Shown: piece by piece, positions 11,948-64,000 of the stretch
Layout: every line of letters starts with the position of its first letter
Position numbering within the stretch: position 1 is the stretch's first letter
Source of the DNA: Pseudoxanthomonas helianthi
Lineage (GTDB): Bacteria; Pseudomonadota; Gammaproteobacteria; Xanthomonadales; Xanthomonadaceae
Length of the DNA: 64,000 nucleotides
Assembly: GCF_017939625.1 (NCBI RefSeq)
Contig: NZ_JAGKTC010000001.1
Location: forward strand, 1,024,519 to 1,088,518
Direction: 5' to 3'
Notes under the pieces: model-generated
The model's input: only the letters and a program-made list of their open reading frames with translations
The model's database searches: none
What the model was told of the DNA's origin: nothing
Made by a program: the position numbers and the translations under genes

Positions 11948-12394
11948 ATGAGCCTGAAAGAACAACTCACCGCCGACATGAAGGCCGCGATGAAGGCCGG
12001 CGACAAGGACAAGCTGGGCGTGATCCGCCTGATCAACGCCGCGATCAAGCAGAAGGAAGTCGACGAGCGCGTCGAGCTGGACGACGCGGCGGTGCTGGCC
12101 GTGCTGGAAAAGATGGTCAAGCAGCGCAAGGATTCGGTCAGCCAGTACGAAACCGCCGGTCGCGAGGACCTGGCCGCGATCGAGCGCGCCGAAATCGCGG
12201 TGATCGACGGCTACCTGCCGGCCAAGCTGGGCGAGGCGGAAATCCTCGCCGCGATCGACGCCGCCATCGCCGAGACCGGTGCCACCGGTCCGGCCGACAT
12301 GGGCAAGCTGATGGGCGTGCTGAAGCCCAAGCTGGCCGGACAGGCCGACATGGGCCAGGTGTCCGCGCTGGTGAAGAAGAAGCTGGTCGGCTGA
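11948..12394 (+). CDS. yqeY: GatB/YqeY domain protein
   Basis: This 148-residue protein is a stand-alone YqeY domain, homologous to the C-terminal tRNA-binding part of GatB. Its N-terminus MSLKEQLTADMKAAMKAGDK and the EKMVKQRKDSVSQYETAGR region are typical. Function is unproven; it may bind tRNA or take part in amidation-linked processes. It follows rpsU beyond a terminator, so its expression depends on read-through or an unseen promoter. Confidence 0.92.
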   Translation: MSLKEQLTADMKAAMKAGDKDKLGVIRLINAAIKQKEVDERVELDDAAVLAVLEKMVKQRKDSVSQYETAGREDLAAIERAEIAVIDGYLPAKLGEAEILAAIDAAIAETGATGPADMGKLMGVLKPKLAGQADMGQVSALVKKKLVG

Positions 12395-54367: not shown

Positions 54368-56005
54368 TCAACCGCCGAACAGCGACTTGACCTTGCGGCC
54401 CAAACGGGTCAGGAACGAATCGGCGGTGTTGGCCGGCTTCGCGACCGGCGCGGACGCGGCCATTGGTGCGGCGACGGCATCGGCTCCCTCCAGTGGACGG
54501 CCATGGCGACGGCGACGCCGCTTGCGCGGCGCGCGCTCGCCCTCCGGCTTCGCCTCGACATTCGCGGCAACGACGGGGTTCGCCTGTTCCGGACGCGGGC
54601 TGCGTGGCGGGCGCGGCTTGCCATCATGCGAGCGCGAACCGCCCTCGCGACGTTCACCACCGCGACCGCGACCGCCACTGCCGCTGCGTCCACCGCCACT
54701 GCGGCCGCCGCCGCGCTTGGCGTCCTCGGCGGCACGCGCTTCGCGGGCTTCCTTGAAGATCTCGCCGATGCTTTCCTCTTCCTCGCCGGCTTCGCCCGCC
54801 GGGGGCGGTGCGCGCTCGGGGCGCGGCAGCGCGGTCAGCAATTCGGCGGTGACCGCTTCGACCGGGATCTTCTGTTCGATGTAGGCCTCGATGTCCGGCA
54901 GCGACATCGCATAGCGCTCGCAGGCGAAGCTGATCGCGTCGCCCTCCGCGCCCAGCCGCGCGGTGCGCCCGATGCGGTGCACGTAATCCTCGGCGTCGAA
55001 CGGCAGGTCGAAGTTGTAGACGTGCGAGACGCCGTCGATGTGCAGGCCGCGTGCGGCCACGTCGGTAGCGACCAGCAGTTCCAGCTGGCCGGCCTGGAAT
55101 TTCTTCAACAGGGTTTCGCGCTTCTTCTGCGGCACGTCGCCGCTGAGCACGCCAACCCGGTAGCCCGCGCGTTCCAGCGCGCGCGCCACGCGCTCGACGA
55201 AGGCCTTGGTGTTGACGAACACCATGGTGCGGGCGCCCTCGCTGCGCGACAGCAGGCCCAGCAGCAGCGGGATCTTCTCTTCGTCGGCCGGGAAGTAGAT
55301 GCGCTGGCGCACGCGCGCGGCGGTGACGGTTTCGGCTTCGACGACGAGCTTTTCCGGCTCGTTCATGTGCTCGTAGGCCAGTTCCAGCACGCGGTGGCTC
55401 AAGGTGGCGCTGAACAGCAGGGTCTGGCGCTCGGTGCGGATCGGCATGCGCCGCAGCAGGAAGCGGATGTCCTTGATGAAGCCCAGGTCGAACATGCGGT
55501 CGGCTTCGTCCAGCACGCAGATTTCGCAGGCGTGCAGCGACACGACCTTGTGCTGCTTGACGTAGTCGATCAGTCGGCCCGGCGTGGCGATGATCACGTC
55601 GACGCCCTGCTGCAGCAGCTCGCGCTGCTTGTCGTAATCGACGCCGCCGTAGACCAGGGCGAAACGCAGGCCGAGGTCGCTGCCGAACTTCACTGCGTCC
55701 TTGTGGATCTGGATCGCCAGTTCGCGGGTCGGCGCCAGGATCAGCGCGCGCGGGTCCTCGGGCTTGCGCTCGGCCAGCGCGGGACGGCTCAGCAGGCGGT
55801 TCATCACCGCGACCAGGAAGGCCAGGGTCTTGCCGGTGCCGGTCTGCGCCTGTCCGGCGACGTCGCGGCCGGCCAGCGCGACCGGCAGGGTCAGCGCCTG
55901 GATCGGCGTGCAACGGGTGAAGCCGGCGGCTTCCAGCCCGGCCAGCAGGGCCGGGTGCAGTTCGAACGAATCGAAGGTGATGTCGGTTAAGGGCTTGTCG
56001 CTCAT
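54368..56005 (-). CDS. rhlB: ATP-dependent RNA helicase RhlB
   Basis: This 545-residue DEAD-box helicase has motif [19 protein letters not shown] (VLDEADRMF), SAT (LFSATL), and [10 protein letters not shown]. RhlB unwinds RNA for the degradosome in E. coli. The C-terminal extension after about residue 395 has Gly/Arg/Ser RGG-like repeats and a basic RKRRRRR cluster, typical of long Xanthomonadaceae forms and likely RNA-binding. It is divergent from trxA-rho across 298 bp, in which I see no other gene. Confidence 0.95.
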
Positions 56006-56303
56006 CGTGTTTCTGTGAAGGCTGGGATTGCGTCGCTGTGTTCCGCGTACGCGCATGTGAAGACCGGGTTCGCGCTTGCATCGGCGGGGTCGCCGTCGCA
56101 CACTGCGCCCCAATGCCGGGACCTTGCGCTACCAGCGAAAACCTTTCGCCAGAACCATGGCGGGGCCGCGACGGAAACGCTTCGCGGACAGCCCCGCAAC
56201 CCTTGCCAAGAGGGCCTTGAACCCGGCCACGCAATACCCAAGTTTAACCCAAACGGCGGCCGACCCCGGCCGGACGCCATGCGTTTTCCGCAGGAGACCC
56301 GAA

Positions 56304-56642
56304 GTGAGCGACAAAGTGACCCATGTCGGCGACGCCGATTTCGACGCCGCAGTGCTGCAGTCGGACACCCCCGTGCTGGTGGATTTCTGGGCCGAATGGT
56401 GCGGCCCGTGCAAGATGATCGCCCCGGTGCTGGACGAGCTGGCCGAGACCTATGACGGCAAGCTGAAGGTGGTCAAGTTGAACGTCGACGAAAACCGCGC
56501 CAGCGCGATGAAGTACCACGTGCGCTCGATCCCGATGCTGCTGCTGTTCAAGGACGGCCAGATCCAGGCCACCCAGATCGGCGCGGTGGGCAAGGGCCAG
56601 CTGACCCAGATGATCGACAAGGGCATCACGGCCCACGCCTGA
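56304..56642 (+). CDS. trxA: Thioredoxin
   Basis: TrxA (112 residues) is the cytosolic thiol-disulfide reductant. The redox motif is WAEWCGPCKMIAPV with Cys33 and Cys36, and the cis-proline loop is RSIPMLLLF. The start is GTG at 56304, with AGGAGA nine bases upstream; the frame is open further upstream but the N-terminus would be abnormal. trxA upstream of rho is a conserved gammaproteobacterial arrangement. Confidence 0.97.
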   Translation: MSDKVTHVGDADFDAAVLQSDTPVLVDFWAEWCGPCKMIAPVLDELAETYDGKLKVVKLNVDENRASAMKYHVRSIPMLLLFKDGQIQATQIGAVGKGQLTQMIDKGITAHA

Positions 56643-56866
56643 ACCGGCGGCGGGCCGCATCGCGGCCCTCCCTCGCCGGGCATTCCCCGGCACCAGCTGA
56701 ACACATCCGCCACGCGGCGCTTGCCGCCGCCGTGGCCCGGTGCTAGTGTCTTCACCGTATCCGGCGCGGGTGTTGCGCGCCGCACCCATCTCCCGGAACC
56801 CTCTTCCGTTTCTTCCACAACGCCCGCTTCCATGCCGGCGCTCGCCATCTAGCGAGGATTTCCCAC

Positions 56867-58540
56867 TTGTCCGATACCACTTCCGAAACCGGCGAAACCG
56901 CCGAGAAGCGCGTGCGCAAGCCGCGCGTCAGCAAGGCCGCCGCCGCGGCCGCCACCGAACAACCCGCCGCCGTTGCGGCACCTGCCGAAGCCCCGCCGCC
57001 GCCCGCGCCCAGTGCGCCGGCCGCCAGCGAGTCCGCTCCGGCGCCTGCCGCCGAAGGCGGCAACACCGCGCAGAGCGCCGAAGGCGGCGAACCGCGCGAC
57101 GGCCAGCAGAACAACCGTTTCAACAACAACAATAACAATCGCCGCGATCGCTTCCGCAACCGCCGGGAACGCAATCGCGAGCGCTACGCCCAGCAGAACG
57201 GCCTGCCGCAGGACGGCGAAGGCAACGACAACCAGTTCGTGCCGCGCCAGCAGCCGAGCGTGCCGGAAGGCTTCCCGCAATACTCGCTCAGCGACCTCAA
57301 GCGCATGCCCGCGCAGAAGCTGCTGGAGATCGCCGAGCAGCTGAACATCCACGAAGGCGTGGCCCGCGCGCGCAAGCAGGATGTGATCTTCGCCCTGCTG
57401 AAGGTGCTGACCCGCCACGGCGAAGGCGTTGCCGCCGACGGCGTGCTGGAAATCCTGCCGGACGGCTTCGGCTTCCTGCGCGCGGCCGAGGCTTCCTACC
57501 TCGCCGGCCCGGACGACGTGTACATTTCGCCCAGCCAGATCCGCCGCTTCAACCTGCGCACCGGCGACCACATCGCCGGCCGCATCCGCTGGCCGAAGGA
57601 CGGCGAGCGCTACTTCGCGCTGAACATCGTCGACACGATCAACGGCGAGCCGATCGAGGCCAGCAAGGGCAAGGTGCTGTTCGAGAACCTGACCCCCCTG
57701 TTCCCGCGCAAGCGCTTCACCCTGGAACGCGGCAACGGCTCTTCGGAAGACATCGCCGGCCGCATCCTCGACCTGATGGCACCGCAGGGCAAGGGCCAGC
57801 GCGCGCTGATCGTTTCGCCGCCGAAGGCCGGCAAGACGATCATGATGCAGCAGGTCGCCACCGCCATCACCACCAACCACCCGGACGTGCACCTGATCGT
57901 GCTGCTGATCGACGAGCGCCCGGAAGAAGTCACCGAAATGCAGCGCACCGTGCGCGGCGAGGTGATTTCGTCCACGTTCGACGAACCGGCCGCGCGCCAC
58001 GTGCAGGTCGCGGAAATGGTCATCGAACGCGCCAAGCGCCTGGTCGAGCACAAGAAGGACGTGGTGATCCTGCTCGACTCGATCACCCGCCTGGCCCGCG
58101 CCTACAACAACGTCGTGCCCAGCTCCGGCAAGGTCCTGACCGGCGGCGTCGACGCCAACGCACTGCACCGCCCGAAGCGCTTCTTCGGCGCCGCGCGCAA
58201 CGTCGAGGAAGGCGGCAGCCTGACCATCATCGCCACCGCGCTGGTCGAGACCGGCAGCAAGATGGACGAGGTGATCTACGAAGAATTCAAGGGCACCGGC
58301 AACAGCGAAGTGCACCTGAACCGCCGCATCACGGAGAAGCGCGTCTACCCGGCCATCGACATCAACCGCTCCGGCACCCGCCGCGAGGACCTGCTGATCG
58401 AACCGGACCTGCTGCAGAAGATCTGGATCCTGCGCAAGCTGCTGCACCCGATGGACGAAATCGCGGCGATGGAGTTCCTGCTGGACAAGATGAAGAACAC
58501 CAAGTCCAACGACGAGTTCTTCGCTTCGATGAAGCGGTAA
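56867..58540 (+). CDS. rho: Transcription termination factor Rho with long disordered insertion
   Basis: Rho (557 residues) is a hexameric RNA helicase that ends transcription. The start is TTG at 56867 with a GAGGA ribosome site. Residues 1-135 form a low-complexity extension: Ala/Pro-rich, then Gln/Asn/Arg-rich with a run of Asn (FNNNNNNRR). The usual Rho_N domain begins near residue 145 ([20 protein letters not shown]), followed by the RNA-binding OB fold and the ATPase (SPPKAGKT near 319, [11 protein letters not shown]-loop). E. coli Rho has 419 residues, so the difference is the N-terminal part. The upstream 224 nt form an untranslated leader with a GGGCCGC/GCGGCCC hairpin. Confidence 0.96.
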
Positions 58541-58570
58541 GGCCCAAAAAGCCGGGAAACCACGTCCAAA

Positions 58571-58598
58571 CGGGCCCTCCTCTCGCAGGGAGGGCCCG
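58571..58598 (+). other. Stem-loop after rho
   Basis: CGGGCCCTCC (58571-58580) pairs exactly with GGAGGGCCCG (58589-58598). There is no T run after it, so it may protect the rho transcript rather than end it. It is close to the boundary of the mobile island. Confidence 0.6.
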
Positions 58599-58624
58599 GA
58601 ACCATCGGAAGGGTCGGGAAGGGG

Positions 58625-58647
58625 TTTGACCCCCTACTTTGACCCCC
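58625..58647 (+). repeat. Direct repeat TTTGACCCCC, twice
   Basis: TTTGACCCCC occurs at 58625-58634 and 58638-58647, 13 bp apart, between rho and the integrase gene. It could be part of an attachment site or a remnant repeat. Confidence 0.4.
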
Positions 58648-58684
58648 GCGCAGCAAGAACCCCCGACCACGACGGACGGGGAAG

Positions 58685-59914
58685 ATGCGCAAAACGCTGT
58701 ATTTGCAGAGACTGGGGCAGTCTTGGTATCTGCGGATGAAAGTACCCCCTGCCTTGCAGGGGAGAGTCGGAAATACACATATTCGGCGGGCGCTGGGAAC
58801 ACGCGACCTAGACGAAGCGGTGCGCCGGAAGTGGGGAGCCGTGGCGCAGGTACGCGCCTACTTCGACTCCCTCAGGGAAAACTCCCCTACTACGCCTTCC
58901 GCGCTCCTTCCGCCTGCCAGTGCAATCAATTGCACTGCACCCTCATCCCCCCGATTGCAATTAATTGCACCGGCTGGGGCCTGCCCTTCAGCTGGGCTGA
59001 ATGAACTTGCGGAGAAATGGGCCGAGATTGCCGGCACCACCAAGACCGTGCGCTACCAACGCCGGCAGGTCTATGCCGAGCTCCGCGCCTACCTCGGCGG
59101 AGACCACCCGCCCGGAGTCGTCACAAATGCGATAGCCGCCGCCTACGTGGACGAACGTTTAGCCAAGTCCCCAGACAGCGCGAGCACGCGCAGGCGCAAG
59201 CTCAGCGCCTTGGCTGCGTTCTGGGAGTGGTTGGGCCTGCGGGGGTACGTTCCCAAGGGTGTAAACCCGTGGAAGGGCTTTCGCCTCAATCCCAGCGACC
59301 GCAAGACCCCGCTGAAGCGCCCCTACACCATGCCGGAGCTGGTCCGGCTGTTCTCGGGCTCCCCTACTTACCCTGCCTTACGCGAAGTCATGGCGTTGGG
59401 CCTGTATACGGGAGCCCGCATTGACGAGCTCTGCTCGCTCACCCAAGGCGATCTCCGCTGGGAACGCGGGGTCGCCTATGTCCGCATTGCCAAGGCCAAG
59501 ACCAACGCCGGGGTTCGCACTCTTGCAGTCGTGCACCCCATTCCGGTGGGAATCCTCCGCGCGCGGTGGAAACGGCGGGCCTCGCCTGCGGCGCAGCTAT
59601 TCCCGGAACTAAAGGGTGGCGGCTACGACAAGCGCCTCTCTTGGCATGTGGGGCAGGCGTTTCGCTACCACCGAAACAAGCAGGGCCTGACTGGCGCAAC
59701 GGATTTCCACTCCTTGCGTCGCACCTTCATCACCCGGCTAGAGAACTTGAGCATCGACCAAGTCCATATCGCCCGTTACGTTGGACATTCCTTACCGACC
59801 CTCGCGTTTCGCGTCTACTCCGGCGGCGCAACAGAGGTCACGCAACGCGCCACAGGAAAAGCCATCACCTATCCCCGCGATGTTGAGAACGCGGTAAGAC
59901 GATTCCTGAAATAG
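58685..59914 (+). CDS. Tyrosine recombinase/integrase
   Basis: This 409-residue site-specific recombinase has an arm-type N-terminal segment (MRKTLYLQRLGQSWYLRMKV), a core-binding domain (about residues 105-200) and a catalytic domain with Arg245 (TGARIDELCSL), His342/Arg345 (HSLRRTF), His368 (VGHSLPT) and nucleophile Tyr378 (RVYSGG). It lies directly after rho, as expected for an island inserted there. The linker at residues 79-99 is encoded by two copies of the TGCAATTAATTGCA palindrome, which looks inserted; the rest of the protein is intact. Confidence 0.92.
   Translation: MRKTLYLQRLGQSWYLRMKVPPALQGRVGNTHIRRALGTRDLDEAVRRKWGAVAQVRAYFDSLRENSPTTPSALLPPASAINCTAPSSPRLQLIAPAGACPSAGLNELAEKWAEIAGTTKTVRYQRRQVYAELRAYLGGDHPPGVVTNAIAAAYVDERLAKSPDSASTRRRKLSALAAFWEWLGLRGYVPKGVNPWKGFRLNPSDRKTPLKRPYTMPELVRLFSGSPTYPALREVMALGLYTGARIDELCSLTQGDLRWERGVAYVRIAKAKTNAGVRTLAVVHPIPVGILRARWKRRASPAAQLFPELKGGGYDKRLSWHVGQAFRYHRNKQGLTGATDFHSLRRTFITRLENLSIDQVHIARYVGHSLPTLAFRVYSGGATEVTQRATGKAITYPRDVENAVRRFLK
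58921..58969. repeat. TGCAATTAATTGCA palindrome pair inside the integrase gene
   Basis: 58921-58934 is the variant TGCAATCAATTGCA and 58956-58969 is the perfect 14-bp palindrome. Both lie in the region coding for the linker of the integrase, 35 bp apart. Three more perfect copies lie at 60735-60820. Confidence 0.85.
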
Positions 59915-59953
59915 ACGCGTCCAACAAAGGTGTTGCCAACTGAGTTTGATACC

Positions 59954-59985
59954 CCGAATGTGGATTGAATGTTCCAGTCATTCGG
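59954..59985. promoter_or_regulatory. Inverted repeat before the excisionase-like gene
   Basis: CCGAATG (59954-59960) and CATTCGG (59979-59985) form an exact 7-bp inverted repeat spaced by 18 bp, just upstream of the GTG start. It could be an operator or an RNA hairpin that hides the ribosome site. Confidence 0.45.
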
Positions 59986-59995
59986 AGTTTCTCCA

Positions 59996-60205
59996 GTGTC
60001 CGCTCCACACACTTTGCCCGAAACGCCACTCAATCCGCACGACGCCGCCAAATTTTTGGGTGTCAGTGTTCCGACCCTCTACAAATGGCGCAGGTACGGC
60101 GGTGGCCCCACGTTCGTGAAGTACGGGCACCACACGGTGCGTTACTTCCCGTCCGACCTTGGCGAGTTCGTCTCCCGTCATCGCTCCAGCTCTAACCGGA
60201 GGTAG
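59996..60205 (+). CDS. Excisionase/AlpA-like helix-turn-helix protein
   Basis: This roughly 69-residue protein has the winged-HTH pattern of phage excisionases: LNPHDAAKFLGVSVPTLYKWRRYGGGPTFVKYGHHTVRY and FPSDLGEFV. The GTG at 59996 is favoured by GGAG seven bases upstream; an ATG at 59969 would add nine residues. Position after an integrase fits a recombination directionality factor or a regulator of the element. Confidence 0.82.
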   Translation: MSAPHTLPETPLNPHDAAKFLGVSVPTLYKWRRYGGGPTFVKYGHHTVRYFPSDLGEFVSRHRSSSNRR

Positions 60206-60210
60206 CAGTC

Positions 60211-60669
60211 ATGTCCGTTCACGCAAAGTCCCTCAACCAGCTCGTTGCCGAGCTGAATCACATTGCGCAGATGCGCAAGGCTCAGGAGCAGCATTCGGCC
60301 ATCCTCACCAAAGAGCAGCAGCTTCAGGTGAAAATGGACAAGATGTTCCCGACTCTCGCAGCGCTGCAAAAGCGCATGAATGAAACGCAGGCACAGAAGT
60401 CGGAATTGGACCCCGCATTTGCACCGGCCAAGAAGTCCGAACCGCCCCGCGTTTCCTTCGCCAAGAGTTCTCTCGGCGGCGGTTTCGCGGGTAAGAACGT
60501 CATCAAGGCCATGGAAAACGACGAGCCGTTCTACATGGATAGTTCGCTGGGTACCCGTTTCCGCGCGGAGCAGCGCGCCGAGTTGCGCAAAAGCGCGCAT
60601 GGCCTGCATTTCTACCCCGGCTTCGCCAGCCGCATCGCAATGACGGACGAGGACGACGGCGACTACTGA
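60211..60669 (+). CDS. Island protein of unknown function, coiled-coil
   Basis: This 152-residue protein starts six bases after the excisionase-like gene with a good AGGAGG-like site (CGGAGGTAG). Residues 1-65 are predicted as helical coiled coil (LNQLVAELNHIAQMRKAQEQ). The second half has Phe/Gly/Ser-rich and acidic parts, ending TDEDDGDY. No family is recognised. The location suggests a plasmid- or phage-like accessory function. Confidence 0.7.
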   Translation: MSVHAKSLNQLVAELNHIAQMRKAQEQHSAILTKEQQLQVKMDKMFPTLAALQKRMNETQAQKSELDPAFAPAKKSEPPRVSFAKSSLGGGFAGKNVIKAMENDEPFYMDSSLGTRFRAEQRAELRKSAHGLHFYPGFASRIAMTDEDDGDY

Positions 60670-60734
60670 CCACTGTGGCGGTGGGGAGCATGGGCGCGGT
60701 GGACGGAACCTCCCGCGCCCGTTGCTTCCCCAAT

Positions 60735-60820
60735 TGCAATTAATTGCACTGAGCTTGACCCAACACAAACCGCCACCGTAATTGCAATTAATTGCATTGA
60801 CCGATTTGCAATTAATTGCA
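60735..60820. repeat. Three TGCAATTAATTGCA palindromes before the HTH gene
   Basis: Perfect 14-bp palindromes at 60735-60748, 60783-60796 and 60807-60820 start 48 and 24 bp apart, the last one ending 13 bp before the ATG of the next gene. They cover the promoter region, so a repressor bound there would block transcription. The gap 60670-60833 shows no coding sequence. Confidence 0.88.
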
Positions 60821-60833
60821 CTGGAGTTCCGCC

Positions 60834-61286
60834 ATGCCCGAACACAAAGCAAGCGGCAAGAAGCCCGCAAAACTGAAACCGATCCAACTCAAGGCATTGG
60901 ATTTCATTCTCTCCGGCCTGACCCTGACAGAGGTGTCGGAAAAGCTGGGAGTCTCTCGGCAGACCGTAAGCGAGTGGAAGAACCACAATCCCGCATTCCG
61001 CGCGAAGCTGGAAGAATTGCAAGCGGAAGCAGAAGAAGAAATGCGTAACCTCCTCCCGGCATACAACACCTTCATGCTCAGCCAGCTGCGGAAGCTGGCA
61101 CAGGAAGCGCCGCCCACCATTAGGCTGGAAGCCATCCGCTATTTCTTCGACAGGTTCGGCCAGAAGGATGAAGCATCCGCAACCACGTCCGCTGCAGGCT
61201 TGAGCCCACAGGACGCCATGATTCTCGAAGTCATGCAACAGCGGAGGGGTCGTGAGATGCGCAGCGAGTGGGAGCGCAACGAATGA
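60834..61286 (+). CDS. HTH protein, terminase-small-subunit-like
   Basis: This 150-residue protein has an N-terminal helix-turn-helix (LSGLTLTEVSEKLGVSRQTVSEWKNHN) followed by a long helix (FRAKLEELQAEAEEEMRN). The layout resembles phage small-terminase-type HTH proteins (phBC6A51 family). GGAG lies eight bases before the ATG. Three palindromes in front may be its own operator. It overlaps the next gene by ATGA. Confidence 0.75.
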   Translation: MPEHKASGKKPAKLKPIQLKALDFILSGLTLTEVSEKLGVSRQTVSEWKNHNPAFRAKLEELQAEAEEEMRNLLPAYNTFMLSQLRKLAQEAPPTIRLEAIRYFFDRFGQKDEASATTSAAGLSPQDAMILEVMQQRRGREMRSEWERNE

Positions 61287-62041
61287 CCATTCACAAAATG
61301 ATTGTTGGCGAAGACCTAGACATGCTTCGCCTTCCTGCTAAGCGCCTAGACAAGCTTTCCCCCGACGAGAACTGTCGCTACAACAGACAGAGAACGCATA
61401 ACGTGATTCGTCGCGCATGGCTCATCCATACCCAGACCGGGAAAGATATTCGCGATTGTCTCGACATGTGCTGTGTTCGTGAGTACATGCCGGAAAGTGG
61501 CGAGATGAATGACAGGGATATGAACTCCTTTGCGCTTAGCTTTGGTCTCGACGACGCGCGTTACTGCAACGATTGGCATGTTGGCTTCCCTTTCTTCGTC
61601 GAAGAAGAGGCGAATACGGTCTTCTTCCGTCACGAGGCCGGCCCCTTGCTGCGAAAGCATATGCAGCAGGCGGACACGCCCTATTTTAGGAATCCGCTTG
61701 CCGGGATGGATCCGGATAATTTGCGGGGATGCGCTTTTTACTGCATGGTGTTTCTCAAATATTCGCTGGAGGCTTGGCGAAAAAGCGCTCGTGGAGATGA
61801 CCTCCAACTGAGGACTGTTCGCTTTATTGAGCAAGTGACTGGACGCGATGCGCTCCTCAGCCATACGCCATCTGAGCTGGAAGCACTCTTTGGGCTGGCC
61901 GAGTTGGGCCTCGAATTCATCGAAAGCGGCGGGGTGTTGCTGACTGATGAACCGGCCATGGAAAACGACAAGTCCGATGGGCGCATTGCGCAATTGCGGG
62001 CCGAACTCAACAAAAGAGAGATCCCATCGACGATGGGGTAG
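61283..62041 (+). CDS. Island protein of unknown function
   Basis: This 252-residue soluble protein is coupled to the HTH gene by an ATGA overlap. It contains several cysteines (for example DIRDCLDMCCVREYM, GCAFYCMVFLKYS) and an acidic character. No signal peptide, membrane helix or catalytic motif is recognisable, and I do not know the family. Base composition is lower in GC than the chromosome, consistent with recent transfer. Confidence 0.7.
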   Translation: MTIHKMIVGEDLDMLRLPAKRLDKLSPDENCRYNRQRTHNVIRRAWLIHTQTGKDIRDCLDMCCVREYMPESGEMNDRDMNSFALSFGLDDARYCNDWHVGFPFFVEEEANTVFFRHEAGPLLRKHMQQADTPYFRNPLAGMDPDNLRGCAFYCMVFLKYSLEAWRKSARGDDLQLRTVRFIEQVTGRDALLSHTPSELEALFGLAELGLEFIESGGVLLTDEPAMENDKSDGRIAQLRAELNKREIPSTMG

Positions 62042-62054
62042 GCATCCCCGCCTA

Positions 62055-62083
62055 AAAGCCGCTATGTGCGCCTAGGCGGCTTT
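62055..62083. terminator. Bidirectional hairpin between the unknown gene and the recombinase
   Basis: AAAGCCGC (62055-62062) and GCGGCTTT (62076-62083) form an 8-bp stem that overlaps the recombinase stop. T-rich flanks are short; it may end both convergent transcripts. Confidence 0.55.
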
Positions 62084-62761
62084 AAGCATGGAGCGAATAG
62101 CGGAGGCGTGATAAGCGTTGCCCTTGCCGTTGTAGTGGCCCTGTAGGGCCAACTGCGCGGAAATATCTCGGTAGCTCAGCCGCTTCCCTTCGCTTCCCCT
62201 TTTGCGGCGCAGCTTGCGAGCCAGTTCCACTACTTCGGGCCTGACCTCGTGATGGGACTTCCGGCCTTCGCATTTCCCTTCGGCGGCTCGCTTGCGTTCA
62301 CGGGCCCCTCGCAACTTGGCAACGATGTTGGCTTTCTCGAACTGCGCGATGGCCCCCATCACCTGCCTAACAAGCTGAGCGGTCGGAGTGTCGTCTAGGA
62401 ATCCGCCGGGAGTGTCCACCGCGATGAGCTCGATCCCGCGTTCCTTGAGCAGGCGGTAACCCGTCTCCTGCACGATGAGGTCGCGGGCAAAGCGGTTGGC
62501 GGTCTCGACAAGGATCACCCGAACATCGGGATTGTCGGAGAGGTAGGCAAGCAGTTCCCGGAAACCCGGCCTAGCGTCGATGGGGTCGGAGCCGGAAACG
62601 GCGGCATCGTAGTAGGCGGGCTCACGGATGACGTACCCCGCTCGCTTGGCAAAGGCTTCGATAGCCGTCCACTGGCGCACGTGGGAATCCTTGCCCTCGC
62701 CCACGTTGGTGGCGGAACTGGTGCGGAGATAGGCAACTGCCGGGATAGCCGTCTTTCGCAT
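62072..62761 (-). CDS. Serine recombinase (resolvase family)
   Basis: This 229-residue site-specific recombinase has the resolvase N-terminus VAYLRTSSATN with nucleophile Ser15, the ILVETANRFARDLIVQE motif (Arg residues of the active site) and a C-terminal HTH (LSYRDISAQLALQGHYNGKG). Length fits small resolvases/invertases. It may resolve multimers or invert part of the island; no obvious crossover site is seen. It is divergent from the abortive-infection-type gene. Confidence 0.88.
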   Translation of the reverse strand: MRKTAIPAVAYLRTSSATNVGEGKDSHVRQWTAIEAFAKRAGYVIREPAYYDAAVSGSDPIDARPGFRELLAYLSDNPDVRVILVETANRFARDLIVQETGYRLLKERGIELIAVDTPGGFLDDTPTAQLVRQVMGAIAQFEKANIVAKLRGARERKRAAEGKCEGRKSHHEVRPEVVELARKLRRKRGSEGKRLSYRDISAQLALQGHYNGKGNAYHASAIRSMLKAA

Positions 62762-62821
62762 GGTCTGCCCCCTCCAGTGATGGGCATTGCCCCGTCGCGG
62801 AGGGGCCTTTCGGAACCGAAT

Positions 62822-62849
62822 TGTACTTAATTCCGAAGATTAAAGTACA
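62822..62849. promoter_or_regulatory. Inverted repeat TGTACTT/AAGTACA in the divergent gap
   Basis: Exact 7-bp arms at 62822-62828 and 62843-62849 lie in an AT-rich stretch in the recombinase/Abi intergenic region. This is a plausible operator for the XRE-type regulator encoded at the window end. Confidence 0.55.
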
Positions 62850-62904
62850 TCGGACCGTCTAAGGACGACCTGAAGTAGAGTCACGCGGGAACGAAGGAGG
62901 CGCC

Positions 62905-63714
62905 ATGGGCCAGCTTGTCATCTCGGAGACAGTGATTACCGCCCTCTCTAGACTCGTTGACGATGGGCAGGCTGAAGTGAAGCGTGAGCCGACGCACTCT
63001 GCCATTGAGTTTCAAATCGACAAGGCCAGGTTGTCAGCTGGTGACCCCTCAAAGACAGGCCAGGTTGTTGGCAAAGCTAAGCGTGTAAGGGGCGTCTTGA
63101 GCTGGGGAATGGAAAATGCCCCGCTGAACGCCAGCCAGTTCGCTGAAGCCCTATTGGCCGTAGTTAGGGGCTCCGGCGGCTTCAGAGAGACCTCACCGAA
63201 CTACGCCGGTCGGGAGGCGATCATTGACGCAATAGCGGCGTTTCGAAGCGAGGGTTACGAACTCAGTACTGATGGCGAACTGCGCCCCCTTCTATTGGAC
63301 TCGCTGTCGGGGAAGCCCCTCACCGAAGCCCTCAACGCATATGTCAGACGAGCGCGCGCAGGCGCGTTAGATGCTGCTCTTGTCACCGGGACCGGAAAGG
63401 ATCTTCTTGAGGCAACCGCAAAACATGTTCTTATGACTAAGTTCGGTACAGAACCCACCATAACGAACTTTCCAACACTCCTTGCACAAGCCTTCATAGC
63501 ATTAGGCCTATGCATCGAAAAATCTGCGGCACGGAGTCCACAAGAGCGAGTGGATGCCGCGCTTTATGAACTCGCGTGCGGCGTCAACGCGCTCCGCAAC
63601 GCCCAAGGCATCGGACATGGCCGCCCATTCCCTTCGACCGTCAGCCCAGACGAGGCACGAATCGCAGTAGAGAGCATGGGCGCGGTAGCTGATCGTCTAT
63701 TAACGCAACTCTAG
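62905..63714 (+). CDS. Abortive infection-type protein (Abi C-terminal domain)
   Basis: This 269-residue protein ends in a region (about 180-269) with YELACGVNALRNAQGIGHGR and the preceding helix pattern of the abortive infection C-terminal (Abi_C) domain found in phage defence proteins. The N-terminal half has no recognised domain. A very strong ribosome site (AAGGAGG) precedes the ATG. The gene is divergent from a serine recombinase, convergent with an XRE regulator, and lies on a mobile island, all typical of defence genes. Function is inferred. Confidence 0.7.
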   Translation: MGQLVISETVITALSRLVDDGQAEVKREPTHSAIEFQIDKARLSAGDPSKTGQVVGKAKRVRGVLSWGMENAPLNASQFAEALLAVVRGSGGFRETSPNYAGREAIIDAIAAFRSEGYELSTDGELRPLLLDSLSGKPLTEALNAYVRRARAGALDAALVTGTGKDLLEATAKHVLMTKFGTEPTITNFPTLLAQAFIALGLCIEKSAARSPQERVDAALYELACGVNALRNAQGIGHGRPFPSTVSPDEARIAVESMGAVADRLLTQL

Positions 63715-63758
63715 ACGAAATTTATAGAGGCGCGCGGAACTGGCGAAGGCATAAGGCT

Positions 63759-63995
63759 CTATAACCCTTTATGTCGCGGCTGCAGCGCCGCTACCGTTCT
63801 CTTGAGCAGTTCAGTTGAATCTACGCCCATCGCCTTCGCCAAGACGATGAGCGTTGTAATGGTTGGTTGGCGCTGACCGCGTTCCAGCAGCGAGATGTAA
63901 GTGCGATCCAACTCGGCCTCTAGCGCCAAATCTTGTTGCGAGAGCCCAAGACCGACTCGGGCTTGGCGCAATGTCTCGCCAAATGCCCTTTGCAC
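63759..63995 (-). CDS. XRE family transcriptional regulator (5' end uncertain)
   Basis: At least 78 residues: an XRE/Cro-type helix-turn-helix (LRQARVGLGLSQQDLALEAELDRTYISLLERGQRQPTITTLIVLAKAMG). The GTG at 63995 is only five bases from the window edge and the frame is open beyond it, so the true start may lie outside. Such small regulators control restriction-modification and abortive-infection genes; here it is convergent with the Abi-type gene and could bind the inverted repeat in its promoter. Confidence 0.75.
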   Translation of the reverse strand: MQRAFGETLRQARVGLGLSQQDLALEAELDRTYISLLERGQRQPTITTLIVLAKAMGVDSTELLKRTVAALQPRHKGL

Positions 63996-64000
63996 CGATT

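Follow-up and report, generated by a model that had tools for sequence, protein, structure and literature searches.

A 64,000-nucleotide stretch of the Pseudoxanthomonas helianthi genome (contig NZ_JAGKTC010000001.1, positions 1,024,519 to 1,088,518; hereafter the window) carries five copies of a 14-bp palindrome, TGCAAT-YR-ATTGCA, inside an integrative island at the 3′ end of the rho gene. The sites are real, are confined to the island both here and in a genome of another genus (G071; G-numbers denote genomes and L-numbers DNA stretches), are conserved as DNA, and fall into four position classes shared by the two islands despite different right-hand cargo. We tentatively read them as double-stranded sites of a dimeric DNA-binding protein that would control the island, a dispersed, stoperator-like set of operators, and we give this reading close to an even chance.

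At up to two mismatches the window contains exactly five matches to the 14-mer, all within 58921-60820, whereas shuffled windows averaged 0.03 matches and none of 100 shuffles reached five. The initial annotation had listed four perfect copies and one with a single mismatch, with none in the rest of the window, and its count and positions are correct. Across the whole genome (3,588,529 bases, 4 contigs) we found seven sites at up to one mismatch, all between positions 1083439 and 1094063 of contig C1, and a reversed (not complemented) control motif had no match. All seven lie inside one island of about 11 kb, two of them beyond the window. Random genome-wide occurrence at a similar density, which the initial annotation had named as fatal to its proposal, is therefore not what the genome contains. 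The sites are as follows; adding 57,481 to a position in stretch L008 gives the window coordinate.

58921..58934, no strand: site 1, TGCAATCAATTGCA, one mismatch; inside int, read A-I-N-C.
58956..58969, no strand: site 2, perfect; inside int, read Q-L-I-A; 35 bp from site 1.
60735..60748, no strand: site 3, perfect; leader of the helix-turn-helix (HTH) gene.
60783..60796, no strand: site 4, perfect; 48 bp from site 3.
60807..60820, no strand: site 5, perfect; 24 bp from site 4, ending 13 bp before the HTH ATG.
L008 7344 (window-equivalent 64825): site 6, between the ends of two convergent open reading frames (ORFs).
L008 12051 (window-equivalent 69532): site 7, 266 bp before the rho repeat and upstream of the PP2C operon.

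Sites 3 to 5 occupy the gap between a 152-aa ORF and the HTH gene, whose ATG is at 60834, just as the initial annotation had described three phased copies in front of that gene. It had not recorded that the first two sites lie inside the int ORF or that the island sits at rho. Those two fall at int codons ~79-84 and ~91-96, in the linker between the DUF6538 domain and the part matched by the integrase profile. The sequences flanking the 14-mers are unrelated, both within the window and across elements, and an Rfam scan of 56000-64000 returned no match. Among 76 sites (up to two mismatches, 17 stretches) every one has a pyrimidine-purine center, 63 of them TA and 13 CA/TG, although some of the stretches were fetched by the exact motif, which biases the count toward TA. 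Such a center would suit a kink at the middle of a dimer site.

The boundaries of the island are clear. The rho ORF ends at 58540, and the sequence around its end is repeated at the far side:

58440..58541, + strand: attL side, 3′ end of rho; 100 of 102 bases are repeated at attR, L008 12331-12432 (window-equivalent 69812-69913).

The island is thus about 11.3 kb long. With an integrase gene beside the attachment site and the target sequence directly repeated at either end, it is an integrative, rho-targeting island. A search of 297 genomes of the family (E ≤1e-40) found relatives of its integrase in three: the source genome, G071 and G196. The exact 14-mer occurs in 4 of 397 genomes of the order, the source genome and G071 among them, and in 2 of 38 of the genus. 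G071 alone was reached purely through protein similarity; a further genome, G022, and four alphaproteobacterial recombinase genes were reached through the motif, and Lysobacter soli (L015) through both, which biases the comparisons below.

The G071 island is about 21 kb long and is bounded by a perfect 101-base rho repeat (101/101). All five of that genome's sites at up to one mismatch lie inside it: one in int, an exact copy ending 12 bp before the ATG of the HTH homologue, one on a border between converging genes, and, as a pair, two that fall 180 and 235 bp before attR. A sixth, with two mismatches, lies between two co-directional ORFs. The window island and the G071 island thus place their sites alike, in the int linker, in the HTH leader, at a convergent cargo border and beside attR, yet their right-hand cargo differs. 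In G071 it encodes a DUF4236 protein together with one of 1440 aa that has AAA domains of the helicase type; blastn detected no homology between the two right-hand segments, and blastp of four window-side cargo proteins against four G071 proteins gave nothing better than E 0.27. Other relatives are less complete. Both sites of G022 lie in int, and its contig ends within that gene; in L. soli all three sites lie in a deleted remnant, where int holds two of them and the third adjoins the right-end repeats.

The int genes show what is being conserved. In an alignment of the four rho-type genes the linker has diverged and the 14-mers are kept. The first site is read AINC in three of the four and has decayed in G071; the second is read QLIA in three and QSIA in the other. 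Four alphaproteobacterial recombinase genes (L011, L012/L057, L013 and L018) carry a pair in a similar place, with both sites read AINC. Because a protein motif cannot account for one DNA word in two reading frames, these comparisons indicate that selection acts on the DNA and not on the protein. We also considered an RNA or single-stranded DNA hairpin formed between the paired sites. The decayed first site of G071, GCAGTCGACTGC, is still a 12-bp palindrome but has lost complementarity to its partner, and we therefore disfavor this possibility.

The initial annotation had offered a multi-site operator as one of three explanations. We favor an operator function, because a site stands 12-13 bp before the HTH ATG in both the window and G071 and because each site is self-palindromic. 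An operator of one promoter does not fit; int itself and the space between convergent genes hold sites too, which is why we picture a dispersed set. A dimeric regulator would bind the palindromes and silence the island. The pair in int might act as a roadblock to transcription entering from rho, the cluster next to the HTH gene's ribosome-binding site would provide autoregulation, and one operator would sit between convergent transcripts at the cargo border. The one or two sites between the cargo operon and attR may act on cargo expression, or on excision beside an array of CCGAC repeats described below. How islands in expressed genes such as rho keep their integrase silent is often unknown. 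An operator pair fixed in the integrase gene, kept in two reading frames and present in elements of distant bacteria, would, if the reading is correct, offer a sequence tag by which to find islands of this kind and a way to reach the protein responsible for their silencing or release.

The gene content of the island, given here with its end repeats, offers candidates for a binding protein:

58626..58647, + strand: two TTGACCCCC repeats, 13 bp apart; candidate integrase arm sites.
58685..59914, + strand: int, tyrosine recombinase (PF20172 E 1.3e-15, PF00589 E 7.4e-14; PHROG 1 integrase); DUF6538 at residues 6-64, integrase profile match from residue 105, catalytic domain at 226-373.
59969..60205, + strand: AlpA/excisionase-like HTH_17 protein (PF12728 E 2.5e-8; PHROG 66 E 5.9e-8).
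60211..60669, + strand: 152-aa ORF; no Pfam, PHROG or NCBIfam match.
60834..61286, + strand: HTH protein, 150 aa, terminase-small-subunit-like (phBC6A51-like), candidate binder (PHROG 7344 E 1.1e-9).
61283..62041, + strand: 252-aa ORF; a 29% identical homologue follows the HTH gene in G071.
62072..62761, − strand: serine recombinase, resolvase domain (PF00239 E 1.8e-25); 77% identical homologue in the G071 island.
62905..63714, + strand: Abi_C domain protein (PF14355 E 9e-11).
63759..64000 and past the window end (L008 6278-6535), − strand: XRE/HTH_3 regulator (PF01381 E 2.1e-15 on 63759-63995).

As candidate binders in this island we would rank the terminase-small-subunit-like HTH protein first, the AlpA-like protein second and a host protein third. 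An AlphaFold model of the HTH protein, built from three sequences, has a mean predicted local distance difference test score of 69, rising to 81-92 over residues 11-60, which contain the HTH. In the PDB the nine chains of 2ao9 (phBC6A51) take the first nine places, at E 0.011-0.085 and with a best probability of 1.00; no PDB match reached E ≤0.001. Among ten site-bearing genomes searched at E ≤0.01, the family was found in four, strongly in G071, G271 and G597 and at E 3.3e-4 in G595. Five cellular relatives were found at E ≤1e-5, and three of them, in G071, G271 and G783, have sites nearby. Both sites of G271 lie in an element with the HTH homologue and, by eye, a P4-type integrase; in G783, where sites have one or two mismatches, one of two lies at the homologue.

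The palindrome also occurs far outside the family. We searched a collection of 84,980 genomes for two exact sites 22-52 bp apart and found such pairs in eight stretches, with spacings of 35-43 bp. The carriers are Pseudochrobactrum, Asticcacaulis, Erythrobacter, a Hydrogenothermaceae metagenome-assembled genome (MAG), L. soli, a Proteobacteria MAG, Nitrosomonas communis and Phyllobacterium. Seven of the eight have a tyrosine recombinase gene at the pair or within the stretch. The L. soli recombinase is of the rho type; the other six form one XerC-like subfamily (phmmer against the L018 protein, E ≤8e-91; for Asticcacaulis the comparison was made on L057, which extends L012). The pair lies inside the XerC-like gene in four of these six, whereas the Nitrosomonas pair comes after both the recombinase and a RadC gene and that of the Proteobacteria MAG precedes an XRE gene. 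The eighth stretch, L014, an AT-rich contig from a thermophile (G594), has no recombinase in its 3.6 kb. Its pair may be due to chance, since G594 matched the reversed control once; across seven genomes that control gave one match each in G594 and G597 and none in the other five. In the family of G597, one of 120 genomes, G597 itself, has a degenerate pair. Lone exact sites in G280 and G359 lie in regions that look ordinary by eye, and we counted them as background.

Other replicons gave less. Recombinase relatives occur in 344 plasmid records, of which six were examined, and none of the six has a site at up to three mismatches. In the plasmid and phage sets searched, no HTH relative matched at E 1e-5, and the phage contigs contain no exact pair. 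Degenerate pairs occur in 11 phage contigs (L062-L072), against 0 and 4 for two control palindromes, a modest excess to which we attach no weight; by eye, several lie beside structural genes. As a separate observation, an MgsA_C-like gene directly precedes the XerC-like recombinase with its site pair in the alphaproteobacterial elements L018, L013, L057 and L080 (the Pfam match falls below the cut-off in L018 and exceeds it in L013; L057 and L080 were judged by eye).

Given this distribution, the TGCAAT-YR-ATTGCA pairs could be a cis-control code common to two tyrosine-recombinase subfamilies in Alpha-, Beta- and Gammaproteobacteria, often placed in the recombinase gene just before the core-binding domain. 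One shared element or host factor would read the pairs, silence the recombinase by an intragenic roadblock and mark cargo slots. We regard this extension as somewhat unlikely as a whole. If a factor were common to the elements, separate elements would be under one switch.

The proteins examined do not supply such a factor. The HTH family was not found in six of the ten site-bearing genomes (G591, G592, G593, G594, G596 and G022, at the threshold given above) and is weak in G595, so the HTH protein cannot be the general binder, and we rejected it in that role. XRE regulators were rejected as well. Relatives of the L018 XRE protein lie near sites in L011/L080 and L016/L061, with a weak, short match in L057 (E 8e-5), but L081 (Erythrobacter), the Nitrosomonas stretches and those rho islands that were scanned have none. 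No single regulator family among those we checked appears to explain all carriers.

The HTH gaps are among several results that weigh against a dispersed operator set. No site, even at up to two mismatches, occurs on four viral contigs that carry HTH relatives, although the two relatives that we compared have the recognition helix SRQTVSEWKNH in common. The cellular relatives in G844 and G925, both on short contigs, have no sites nearby. Terminase small subunits, moreover, are typically rings and not dimers on palindromes. In consensus scans, the surroundings of the HTH leader, of the convergent site and of the 5′ part of int gave no sigma-70-like promoter; the one weak match in the four regions scanned, upstream of PP2C, is no more than shuffled sequences give. 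These scans say little, because the genome is GC-rich. To the right of attR, an ORF on the − strand (L008 12500-13288) points into the island, and a terminator-like hairpin (L008 12475-12459) faces it. A role of the sites in damping read-through from that side is therefore doubtful, as the hairpin may already stop it. Finally, Asticcacaulis has 10 sites at up to one mismatch, in several places and with several outside the one element, and in Pseudochrobactrum, where three exact sites share one element, the other two of its five, each with one mismatch, lie outside. Nitrosomonas has 31 sites at this threshold, 25 of them on contigs C133 and C144, and the variant TGCAATTAACTGCA is common there. 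Restriction to islands is thus imperfect in some genomes.

Among the alternatives to a dispersed operator set, the one that survives best holds that the palindromes are boundary sites of exchangeable cargo modules, which recombination at the palindromes, site-specific or by slippage, would swap or delete, as in pdif modules or integron cassettes. We consider it unlikely. Sites bracket the cargo in both the window and G071 islands even though the right-hand cargo differs, and one gene of Asticcacaulis has a site on each side, at L058 4573 and 6012. In Nitrosomonas C133 and C144, homology blocks shared by the two contigs end at sites in several cases, and a 66-bp indel falls exactly between two direct copies: between the blocks at C133 29458-30946 and 27549-29408, a single site in C144 corresponds to two sites and 52 bp in C133. 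No recombinase is needed for this indel, however, as slippage at direct repeats of 14 bp explains it. The site may merely be the last conserved stretch at a block end, and the coincidence with block ends is only suggestive. Bracketing of gene modules, as in integrons or pdif modules, thus holds for the two islands and Asticcacaulis and does not extend to all sites; no module has its boundary at the sites within int or in the HTH leader. Fourteen base pairs is also short for the core of a known tyrosine or serine recombinase. Also in Nitrosomonas, sites at L053 1533 and 15308 (C133) bracket a self-match array with a period of about 70 bp (L053 9562-10942), which follows genes that resemble type III CRISPR-Cas by eye.

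A second alternative takes the palindromes as pac-like packaging sites of a phage satellite, recognized by the terminase-small-subunit-like HTH protein. That protein does match terminase small subunit PHROGs and the phBC6A51 fold, three sites precede its gene, where pac sites usually lie, and int and AlpA-like genes are present, as is typical of satellites. By eye, L036 and L039 have a viral HTH relative followed by a large ORF resembling a terminase large subunit. This explanation is nevertheless improbable. Further sites lie in int and at the cargo border, the palindrome occurs in genomes without the HTH family, the viral HTH relatives have no site, and no other packaging gene was recognized among the proteins scanned.

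Just as improbable, in our judgment, is a short palindromic repeat of the selfish kind, inserting wherever a mobile element tolerates it; the initial annotation had also suggested a short selfish repeat. The intergenic and linker positions, the occurrence in pairs and the scatter across Proteobacteria would suit it, as would the several separate places in Asticcacaulis and Nitrosomonas. It is weakened by the confinement of copies to the island, with none elsewhere in the source genome, by the unrelated flanks (though in Nitrosomonas some copies have about 110 bp of one flank in common) and by the position classes common to two islands. Dispersal outside the island and a conserved body or flanks beyond the core, as in REP- or RPE-like repeats, are absent here, although dispersal varies in other genomes.

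The remaining proposal of the initial annotation, arm-type sites of the island integrase, fares worst; taken together with sites of an excision factor, it is very doubtful, although palindromes do lie inside both island ends and adjoin CCGAC repeats near attR in G071 and L. soli. The TTGACCCCC repeats are better candidates. Their pair at the left end is matched by one near attR (L008 12263 and 12276, spanning 12263-12284), and the window has no further copy. G071 likewise has pairs 13 bp apart at both ends; L. soli has a pair at the right end and one copy plus a degenerate copy at the left, and the left end of G022 has the repeat solely in the degenerate form TTGACCACC. These are likely the true arm sites of the rho-targeting integrase family. 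Near attR only, CCGAC repeats recur with a 10-bp period, three at L008 12155-12179, another three in L. soli, and in G071 two with a degenerate third; these are likely excisionase/AlpA sites. Because the two kinds of repeat fit the arm sites and the excisionase array, the palindrome is probably not an arm site. The palindromes closest to the ends are set 180-422 bp inward, others are kilobases from the attachment sites, and the palindrome is common to a second recombinase subfamily. Lambda-type integrases similarly have repeats near the attachment ends, but their arm sites are direct and non-palindromic, and TTGACCCCC, not the palindrome, seems their counterpart here.

The rest of the island has features of its own. 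Beyond the window, a 208-aa ORF is followed by a leftward operon (L008 7477-11814) encoding a 354-aa protein, two serine/threonine kinases, one with a weak cold-shock-like match in its tail, and a PP2C phosphatase. The kinases match the PADLOC models PD-T4-6 and mad6, making the operon a candidate defense module. Upstream of the XRE gene (L008 6540-6600) lies a ACTATAGT...GACTATAGTC repeat that differs from the palindrome and resembles the boxes of restriction-modification controllers. At the left end, a GC-rich inverted repeat at about 58570-58600, just past the rho stop, looks alike by eye in G071, L. soli and G022. It may replace the rho terminator, although our scan listed no terminator-like site there.

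Literature searches did not find the exact 14-mer; they returned analogues and not the palindrome itself, and matches to five 12-mer cores were judged unrelated by title. By gene content the island resembles the phage satellites known as SaPI and PICI, which combine int, AlpA-like and terminase-small-subunit-like genes; it has all three. It differs in that no primase or helper-packaging gene was recognized among the proteins scanned, and its sites are scattered. A second partial parallel is the Kpn2I controller protein, which belongs to a restriction-modification operon and is not known to have a scattered, island-wide set of sites. The DNA-bound controller is reported to stop elongation, much like the roadblock proposed here (PMC6237814). 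The stoperators of Cluster A mycobacteriophages are dispersed repressor sites at promoters and in short intergenic spaces, proposed to stop both initiation and elongation (PMC9283540). Several like sites across one element, before and between genes, are found here too. The stoperators, however, are asymmetric 13-mers that are oriented with transcription and bound by a monomer, whereas the sites described here are palindromes without orientation. Cluster O mycobacteriophages carry 17-bp palindromic repeats in intergenic and coding positions, reported to be of unknown function; their symmetry was taken to suggest a dimeric regulator, and a deletion between two copies is described (PMC4351075). 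For phage Corndog 34 sites are tabulated, and stable lysogens of it are reported not to have been recovered. As in our islands, many copies of a short palindrome spread across one mobile genome. The Cluster O repeat has a different sequence, TGTTCGGNNNCCGAACA, and a host of another phylum, whereas here the copies are few, the islands are integrated and a pair is fixed in the integrase gene. Among the analogues that the literature searches returned, the Cluster O 17-bp palindrome and the Cluster A stoperators are the nearest described patterns to the palindromes of the rho island.

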